From: Pseudomonadota bacterium
GTDB taxonomy: Bacteria > Pseudomonadota > Gammaproteobacteria > Acidiferrobacterales > UBA6901
DNA: 34,948 nt
Direction: 5' to 3'
Assembly: GCA_021790335.1 (NCBI GenBank)
Contig: JAJYEE010000024.1
Location: 1 to 34,948, forward strand
Numbering within the stretch: position 1 is the first letter of the stretch; every line of letters begins with the position of its first letter. The position numbers and the translations under genes are program-made. The notes beneath the pieces are model-generated. The model did not search any database. It had not been told where the DNA came from and worked only from the letters and a program-made list of their open reading frames with translations. Positions 1,967 through 3,503 of this stretch are shown piece by piece.

Positions 1967-2042
1967 TGGCGCTCCCTAGGGGACTCGAACCCCTGTTTTC
2001 GCCGTGAGAGGGCGACGTCCTAGGCCACTAGACGAAGGGAGC
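1967..2042 (-). tRNA. tRNA-Glu (anticodon CUC)
   Basis: The complement folds as a 76-nt tRNA with encoded CCA. The acceptor stem is GCTCCCT/AGGGAGC, the anticodon stem TCGCC/GGCGA with loop CTCTCAC, and the T loop region contains GGTTCGAGTCC. The anticodon read from the loop is CUC, decoding GAG. It closely resembles E. coli tRNA-Glu, which has UUC. The gene is intact despite the neighbouring integrase, as expected when the element restores the 3' end on insertion. Confidence 0.97.
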
Positions 2043-2108: not shown

Positions 2109-2148
2109 CGAACAATAAATATCCGTCGTCGGGCTGACCCATGCCGGA

Positions 2149-2162
2149 AAGGTGACACGATT
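2149..2162 (+). promoter_or_regulatory. Shine-Dalgarno and probable AUU start codon of pcnB
   Basis: AAGGTG (2149-2154) lies five bases before an in-frame ATT at 2160-2162. The next possible start, TTG at 2172, is 17 bases from this site and has no ribosome binding site of its own. No in-frame ATG, GTG or CTG lies just upstream. Initiation at AUU has been reported for E. coli pcnB, which makes the same choice here credible. A four-codon frame, ATG (2141) to TGA (2155), ends just before the ATT. Confidence 0.6.
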
Positions 2163-3503
2163 AACGCTCCTTTGATCATTCCGCGTGCCGAGCATCCCAT
2201 CTCGCGCACGCTCATCAGCGACAATGCTCTGAAAGTGCTTTATCGGCTGCGCGATGCGGGCTACGCCAGTTTTCTGGTGGGCGGTTGCGTGCGTGACCTG
2301 ATGCTCGGGCATGAACCGAAGGATTTCGACGTGGTGACCGATGCCAGTCCTGAGCAGATTCAGGAAGTTTTCCGCAATGCGCGTCTGATTGGCAGACGAT
2401 TTCGTCTCGCCCACATCCATTTTGGTCGGGAAATCATCGAAGTCGCGACGTTTCGCGGCATTCCGACCGATCATGACGAGGACGAGCCGCTGCGCGCCGA
2501 CGGCAACGCGGAGGGTGCGCGGCCATCGGTGCGCGAATCCCGGCACGCCGCGCTTGCGGACTATAATATCTTTGGAACCCAGGAGGAGGATGCGTTGCGG
2601 CGGGATTTCACCGTAAACGCACTTTATTACAACATCCGGGATTTCGCCGTCATGGATTATGTCGGCGGAGTGCGCGACCTCAAGGAAGGCGTCCTGCGCA
2701 TGATCGGCGATCCTCGGGCCCGTTACCGCGAGGATCCGGTACGGATGCTGCGTGTCGTGCGATTCGCGGCGAAACTCGGTTTTCTGATCGAGGCGGCTAC
2801 CGCCGCGCCGATCCGCGAGCTAGGACATCTGCTGCTCGAGGTGTCCCCGGCGCGCATGTTCGAGGAAGTCCTCAAGCTCTTTCATGGCGGCTATTCGGCC
2901 GAAACCTACGAATTGCTGCGCAGCTACGACCTGTTCCGCTACCTGTTTCCGTCCACCGATGAAAGTCTGGCGTCGGAAAGCGACGGTTTCCCGCGTGTGC
3001 TGCTGCCCAAGGCGCTGGAAAGCACGGATGCGCGACTGACCGCGGGCAAGCCGGTGAACCCGGCATTCCTGTTCGCCGCCTTTCTGTGGGAACCAGTGCG
3101 CCTGAGGATGGATCAATTGGTCAGCGAGGGCATGAAAGACCAGGATGCCCTGCGTCATGCCGCGGATTCGGTGCTAAGAGACCAGCAGCGGCACGTCTCC
3201 GTCCCGAAGAGACTCAGTTTTCCCATGCGCGAAATCTGGGAGATGCAGTTGCGCCTTCCGCGCCGCCACGGCAAGAACGCCGCGCGTCTGCTTGAGCACA
3301 AGCGCTTCCGTGCTGCCTACGATTTCCTGCTTCTGCGCGCTCAGGCCGGTGCGGCCGATCCGGAGCTCGCCGACTGGTGGACCCGCTTTCAGGAAGTTGG
3401 ACCCGAGCAGCGCACCGCCATGGTGCGCGCGCTTGTGCCCGCCGCCGCGGGGCGCCCGAAGCGGCGCCGCCGCCGCCGTACGGCTGGCCGTGAGCCCGGC
3501 TGA
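2160..3503 (+). CDS. pcnB: Poly(A) polymerase I
   Basis: This cytoplasmic nucleotidyltransferase adds poly(A) to RNA 3' ends and so speeds RNA decay. Numbered from the TTG at 2172, the class II head motif LVGGCVRD is at about 35-42, followed by the catalytic DFD (D51, D53). Further along are RRFRLAHIHFG, the segment RRDFTVNALYYN, RYREDPVRMLRVVRFAAKLGF and a very basic Arg-rich tail near the stop. These follow E. coli PcnB closely, including RNARLIGRRFRLAH, so this is the polymerase rather than the related CCA-adding enzyme. The start is unusual: ATT at 2160, with a well placed Shine-Dalgarno, fits better than TTG 2172. The protein is 447 aa from ATT or 443 aa from TTG. folK begins inside the last codons, overlapping by 14 nt, so the genes are co-transcribed. 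A tRNA-Glu and island end sit directly upstream. Confidence 0.95.
   Translation: MNAPLIIPRAEHPISRTLISDNALKVLYRLRDAGYASFLVGGCVRDLMLGHEPKDFDVVTDASPEQIQEVFRNARLIGRRFRLAHIHFGREIIEVATFRGIPTDHDEDEPLRADGNAEGARPSVRESRHAALADYNIFGTQEEDALRRDFTVNALYYNIRDFAVMDYVGGVRDLKEGVLRMIGDPRARYREDPVRMLRVVRFAAKLGFLIEAATAAPIRELGHLLLEVSPARMFEEVLKLFHGGYSAETYELLRSYDLFRYLFPSTDESLASESDGFPRVLLPKALESTDARLTAGKPVNPAFLFAAFLWEPVRLRMDQLVSEGMKDQDALRHAADSVLRDQQRHVSVPKRLSFPMREIWEMQLRLPRRHGKNAARLLEHKRFRAAYDFLLLRAQAGAADPELADWWTRFQEVGPEQRTAMVRALVPAAAGRPKRRRRRRTAGREPG

Follow-up and report, generated by a model that had tools for sequence, protein, structure and literature searches.

Introduction

At which codon does translation of pcnB, the gene for poly(A) polymerase I (PAP I), begin in a gammaproteobacterium of the order Acidiferrobacterales in which the only well-placed ribosome-binding sequence precedes an AUU? 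The locus lies in a contig stretch of 34,948 nucleotides, referred to in full as the window, and a first-pass annotation of its sequence had proposed that the AUU start, reported before for E. coli, is a selected means of keeping poly(A) polymerase low. The gene for initiation factor IF3, infC, is the classic AUU gene; Binns and Masters are said to have described the AUU start of E. coli pcnB in 2002, and an arXiv paper by Gvozdjak and Samanta (2020) reportedly deals with genes that prefer non-AUG starts. AUU initiation of pcnB outside E. coli was not found in the excerpts of the literature that we searched, which did not extend to the 2002 paper. For E. coli itself, the AUU start of pcnB is given in the available text of two papers (PMC9764084; PMC9410913), the second of which names infC and pcnB as the only two AUU genes of that organism, and the start codon annotated in NC_000913.3 is indeed ATT. 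The pcnB gene of the window is one more case of a known phenomenon, of which the breadth beyond E. coli is the interesting part.

The start codon of pcnB in the window

The product was identified as PcnB by a profile search, in which it scores 506.5 bits against TIGR01942 (cut-off 305.65); the equivalog model NF008634/PRK11623 gives 498.9, below its cut-off of 702, and the models of CCA-adding enzymes stay below their own cut-offs. The pcnB frame is closed upstream by an in-frame TAA (2103-2105, + strand), and from this stop to codon 7 its NTG or ATH codons (H being A, C or T) are ATA 2115, ATC 2121, ATT 2160, TTG 2172, ATC 2175 and ATT 2178; no ATG, GTG, TTG or CTG lies in frame between the TAA and ATT 2160. 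A Shine-Dalgarno (SD) sequence, AAGGTG (2149-2154, + strand), is separated from the ATT (2160-2162, + strand) by a gap of five bases (2155-2159) and pairs with the anti-SD with -5.4 kcal/mol, whereas every other in-frame NTG or ATH codon before codon 7 scores 0. In all of this the first-pass annotation read the bases correctly: the AAGGTG does stand five bases before an in-frame ATT, it is well placed for no other codon, and the lack of an in-frame ATG, GTG or CTG just upstream holds back to the TAA. Read from the ATT, pcnB would extend over 447 codons (2160-3503, + strand), with its stop at 3501-3503. ATA 2115 and ATC 2121 were ruled out as starts because they have no SD match. A sigma-70-like site on the + strand (2152-2179) overlaps the start codon and was taken as a chance occurrence, and folding of the RNA around the start (2090-2200) gives no greater stability than folding of shuffled sequences (z 0.54).

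The window is an unforced case in that TTG 2172 (2172-2174, + strand), in frame and 17 bases after the SD, is available as a standard start; it is the codon at which the open reading frame (ORF) listing begins the gene, as had been anticipated of gene finders. Moreover, the SD before the ATT, taken alone, is within chance: among 2195 ATH codons that lie in frame inside pcnB genes, 12% reach an SD energy of -5 (this and the other SD energy cut-offs were chosen by us). The AUU start of the window is lifted above chance because it is conserved among relatives.

Conservation of the start among relatives

The sequence AAAGGTGACAMGATTAAC is kept in the other four species of the genus that were compared and in a second pcnB 5′ end present in the same assembly (contig C77). 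Aligning the 5′ ends of relatives was the test that the first-pass annotation had set in advance, and it returned an ATT with an SD in all five species of the genus that were compared and in C77. GATTA is invariant in 10 aligned sequences (the window, C77, four further members of the genus and four sequences of family f7), across which the leader from the TATTATAC block to the SD varies in both length and sequence. In the order, 57 genomes were searched, 54 had a match and 45 loci were read; the nine unread loci all belong to family f4, and among the f4 loci that we did read, those of g6 use TTG. At the codon homologous to ATT 2160 (hereafter column 1), ATT is found in 24 of the 45 loci, ATC in two, GTG and TTG in one each, and other codons in 17. 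An SD energy of -3.5 or lower precedes 25 of these 26 ATT or ATC codons, as compared to 120 of 563 internal ATH codons. The Ile codons in the body of the pcnB genes of the order are ATT in 105 cases, ATC in 308 and ATA in 15, so that the ratio of 24 ATT to 2 ATC at column 1 departs from that of 105 ATT to 323 others in the body (Fisher p 3e-12), and the preference for ATT also holds against the two Ile columns that follow at a distance of five and six codons (p 4e-5), although both p-values are optimistic, the loci being related and the counts not phylogenetically independent.

The conservation of AUU together with an SD is thus found among relatives, though not universally. Among the 17 loci with other codons at column 1 are those of family f4, most of which use TTG after AGGAGG or GGGAGG, and G006, from the family to which the window belongs, where an ATG lies upstream. 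A clear ATG elsewhere in relatives, combined with the lack of a conserved ATT, had been named beforehand as what would speak against the AUU start: the former is seen in G006, Halomonas and Marinobacter, but both the genus and most of the genera close to it keep the ATT. The weak start of pcnB, as predicted here, is recurrent and not universal, many relatives using ATG, GTG or TTG elsewhere. A candidate AUU start in Halomonas was ruled out by an in-frame ATG just before it. The order includes a MAG titled Sulfuricaulis: L120, from the named contigs described below, is identical around the pcnB start to L210, which was read in the order.

The same comparison bears on the possibility that translation starts at TTG 2172, the ATT being part of the leader. 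Apart from being the choice of the ORF listing, this codon is TTG in three species of the genus, GTG in two and in C77, and again GTG in L016, outside the genus. Its SD pairing, however, is only 0 to -0.7 kcal/mol, at 17 bases from the SD; ATG, GTG and TTG are absent from the equivalent codon in 20 of the 21 ATT or ATC loci of the order outside the genus, L016 being the exception, and in several such loci standard starts appear only from codon 24 onwards. A start at TTG 2172, without an SD and not conserved outside the genus, was rejected and appears to us very improbable. Judging from these alignments, pcnB of the window almost certainly begins at AUU 2160, and not at AUG.

Loci without a standard start

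We then considered 204 distinct loci, drawn from a sample of the class, the order, 80 named contigs and E. coli K-12, after exclusion of L002, a CCA-adding paralogue, and of 22 duplicate loci. The class sample covered 370 genomes, 339 of them with a match, from which 80 loci were read (the 26 best by score and 54 taken, at roughly one for each family, from those top-ranked matches that were listed), and the named contigs are the best 80 of at least 583 matches; neither set is random, and both lean to genes resembling that of the window. In 35 of 203 loci (one locus has no visible upstream stop), or a sixth, ATG, GTG and TTG are all absent between the in-frame stop and codon 7, and CTG is absent too in 30 of these 35 "forced" loci. 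For folK, which is the gene next to pcnB in these stretches, the test yields 0 of 135 (Fisher p 5e-9), folK having been assessed in the 135 of the 204 loci in which it was present in the stretch and matched, 27 of the forced loci among them. The difference between pcnB and folK is not due to open length, because with 15 or fewer open codons ATG, GTG and TTG are missing in 26 of 38 pcnB loci and in 0 of 29 folK loci. In 32 of the 35 forced loci no ATG, GTG or TTG occurs before codon 24, where the frame is already within the conserved core, and 27 carry, at columns 0-2, an ATH codon whose SD energy is -3.4 or lower. In L023 the stop codon TAG immediately precedes the ATT, which has an SD of -10.0. 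The putative start is ATC in L034, L122 and L132, and ATA in both L124 (Sedimenticola selenatireducens) and L135 (Solemya velesiana symbiont). Among the forced loci, 22 carry family codes, of which there are 11 in all, the f126 locus having a weak SD. Against an AUU reading counts that 168 of the 203 loci do contain some in-frame ATG, GTG or TTG; also, eight of the 35 forced loci have no good ATH with an SD at columns 0-2, and among these L110, L136, L152 and L168 offer neither a convincing start nor a convincing ATH with an SD.

Over the 204 loci column 1 is occupied by ATT in 38, ATC in 13, ATA in 5, ATG, GTG and CTG in two each, TTG in one and other codons in the rest. The two loci with ATG (L082 and L143) have a near-zero SD match there and other ATGs upstream. 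What is avoided at column 1 is not ATG alone, since GTG, CTG and TTG are equally rare.

Also counting against an AUU reading, an automatic label assigned 53 of the 204 loci to "NTG with SD" and 52 to "ATG available", G006 and the f4 genus being among the loci so labelled; but it is crude, as it puts E. coli, whose pcnB is known to start at AUU, into the "NTG with SD" class, and it may misplace other loci with a long N-terminus, so that its counts and the changes it implies on a tree are rough; it counts 36 forced loci, as only 45 codons upstream were scanned, the strict count being 35. On a PcnB tree of 141 loci (43 ATH, 69 NTG and 29 unlabelled) the label, which misses ATH starts at a long N-terminus, that of E. 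coli included, requires at least 20 changes, of which well-supported branches force 13, as compared to 34.6 in shuffles. Start class is clustered on the tree, yet has been gained or lost repeatedly. In L047, L056 and L070 an in-frame ATG with no SD match lies four bases after TATTATAC, and the pcnB genes of these loci are possibly leaderless, another solution in other families.

A second N-terminal position

E. coli pcnB is the same gene and has an SD, GAGGTG, close upstream, four bases before the ATT. Relative to the core, however, its ATT is displaced upstream by 25 codons (column -24, as opposed to column 1 in the window), and because of this distance the two starts are not homologous in position or in leader; moreover, gluQ and dksA are found upstream of pcnB in E. 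coli, and a divergent tRNA-Glu in the window. In 13 methanotroph-type loci (10 titled as methanotrophs, one as an uncultured proteobacterium) a short hydrophobic-basic motif begins with ATT in 11 cases, with ATA in one (L146) and with ATC in one (L072), with an SD energy of -3.3 or lower in 10 of the 13; in a few of these loci (for example, L147 and L072) an ATG is present as well, in frame and further upstream. In Aliidiomarina indica (L181) an ATT-ATC is preceded by AGAAGGAG, and the two class loci nearest to E. coli, which come from an E. coli-like search of 30 loci, seven of them read and outside the 204, show ATC-ATC-ATT (L258) and ATT (L259), both with SDs. Since the E. coli, methanotroph and Aliidiomarina loci, as well as L258 and L259, have their ATH codons further upstream, the weak start of pcnB would occupy two N-terminal positions. 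Putative AUU, AUC or AUA starts of pcnB recur in many families of the Gammaproteobacteria, beyond E. coli.

infC and other genes with ATH starts

As a positive control we used infC, and the method recovers this known ATH gene. In the genome of the window, infC reads GGAGGGTTAGACCT-ATC, with an SD of -10.0, and no ATG, GTG or TTG is in frame between the upstream stop and this ATC. In the order, 37 of 41 genomes had a match; 30 loci were fetched, L243 could not be placed, and an ATH with an SD stands at the start in all 29 readable loci (ATC alone in 22, ATT in one, ATA in one and two consecutive ATH codons in five), of which four have an in-frame ATG, GTG or TTG within 25 codons upstream. The infC genes of the order (L228-L257) mostly have AUC where infC of E. 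coli, according to published papers, has AUU. Like pcnB of the window, infC of the order combines a weak ATH start with an SD, but it has mostly AUC, with a strong SD in most loci, whereas pcnB of the order has mostly AUU and a weaker SD. This difference between two genes of one order, infC mostly with ATC and pcnB mostly with ATT, argues against a mere bias in Ile codons.

In E. coli, IF3 discriminates against the AUU of its own gene, infC, which serves autocontrol, according to the available text of PMC9410913. Conserved non-AUG ATH starts are also described, in what is available of PMC13009471, for Staphylococcus aureus cvfC1 (AUU) and ccpN (AUA), which differ from the present case in being other genes, of another phylum, with extended SD motifs; the non-canonical sites gave about 10% of the expression of an AUG reporter in RPMI, and ccpN up to 30% in rich medium. 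It is possible, though on balance doubtful, that pcnB and infC form an ancient IF3-sensitive pair in the Gammaproteobacteria, the two retaining ATH starts across distant families, with pcnB re-evolving them whenever its N-terminus is remodelled. If so, polyadenylation-dependent RNA decay would track translation initiation, a shortage of IF3 leading to more PAP I.

Proposed consequences of a weak start for PAP I

We regard it as highly likely that the start at AUU 2160 is placed by the AAGGTG; it would cap PAP I as in E. coli, and it is probably held by selection. The SD, five bases upstream, would place initiation of pcnB at the AUU, to which the initiator tRNA would bring fMet; IF3 would discriminate against so poor a start, capping the synthesis of poly(A) polymerase as for E. 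coli pcnB; and selection would probably hold the start, which at this codon is AUU in most cases, AUC or AUA in some and AUG in few. Whereas the position of the start and its conservation can be read from the alignments, we infer its low efficiency, its dependence on IF3 and the benefit of low PAP I, and that the AUU keeps poly(A) polymerase low is suggested by the work on E. coli, to the extent that its text is available. Deregulated PAP I has been linked to slow growth or lethality (PMC3997798, in its available part).

A real AUU start could also be selectively neutral, the remnant of a weakly expressed gene and no regulatory device. The many relatives that use GTG, TTG or ATG imply that the AUU is dispensable, and the crude start label changes at least 20 times on the PcnB tree. 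Selection for low poly(A) polymerase, as the first-pass annotation suggested, is plausible and has indirect support from column 1, where ATG, one mutation away from ATT, ATC or ATA, is found in two of 204 loci as compared to 56 with ATH; GTG, TTG and CTG are equally rare there, which suits neutrality as well. Neutrality is also at odds with the recurrence of the weak start class in distant families and at a second N-terminal position, and we consider it rather unlikely. The occurrence of this same class in distant families, at two positions, suggests that the dosage of poly(A) polymerase has been selected repeatedly, and the recurrent weak starts are natural replicates for asking whether IF3 controls pcnB.

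Automated gene callers are often limited to ATG, GTG and TTG (PMC5601948, in its available part), and as a consequence many gammaproteobacterial annotations probably give pcnB a wrong start or a truncated form; the sole annotation that we examined, that of E. coli K-12, is right.

The region upstream of pcnB

A possible minimal upstream ORF (uORF), ATG CCG GAA AGG TGA (2141-2155, + strand), to which the first-pass annotation did not refer, overlaps the SD and ends four bases before the ATT. The pattern NTG-CCN-RAA-AGG-TGA overlaps the SD in all six sequences of the genus, beginning with ATG in three, TTG in one and GTG in one of the five species and with GTG in C77. The uORF may feed ribosomes to the AUU, few sequences (five species and C77) bearing on this. 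A stronger version would have AUU 2160 used mainly by ribosomes that re-initiate after the four-codon uORF, which would then set the expression of pcnB. The NTG is kept in the six sequences despite its changing first base, with the stop four bases before the ATT, and L021, outside the genus, has TTG CGG AGG TGA in a similar place. Nonetheless, apart from one partial copy the uORF is known from just five species; it has a weak SD match of its own (-1.7 to -2.5) and occupies bases that pcnB requires for its SD. Of the 21 ATT or ATC loci of the order outside the genus, 16 lack any short NTG ORF that is out of frame and terminates close to the start; the other five have one, in no case with the sequence of the uORF. 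Control of pcnB by re-initiation seems unlikely to us, and direct initiation at AUU 2160 from the AAGGTG is the reading that we retain.

The tRNA-Glu (CTC) divergent from pcnB lies at 1967-2042 (- strand, ARAGORN). The near-symmetric block TATTATAC (2080-2087, assigned to neither strand) contains the -10-like TATAAT of this tRNA gene (- strand, 10 of 12) and is possibly shared as a promoter with pcnB. TATKATAC occurs within 200 nt upstream of pcnB in 101 of 199 loci and the tRNA-Glu 5′-end string within 260 nt of pcnB in 85 of 199, which argues that the divergence of tRNA-Glu and pcnB is an old arrangement. A tyrosine-recombinase-like integrase (791-1843, - strand), for which Xer-type models stay below their cut-offs, lies by the 3′ end of the tRNA-Glu. 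Its location suggests an integrated element running off the start of the contig; a direct repeat of at least 18 bases marking the integration site was not found within 1-2200. In C77 (L003, same assembly), positions 210-1589 hold a second tRNA-Glu and the pcnB 5′ end, about 1.2 kb apart, with the promoter block on both sides of the 1.2-kb stretch, and the contig ends inside pcnB. This pcnB 5′ end is very similar to the G001 version, and the C77 copy perhaps comes from a related strain or species.
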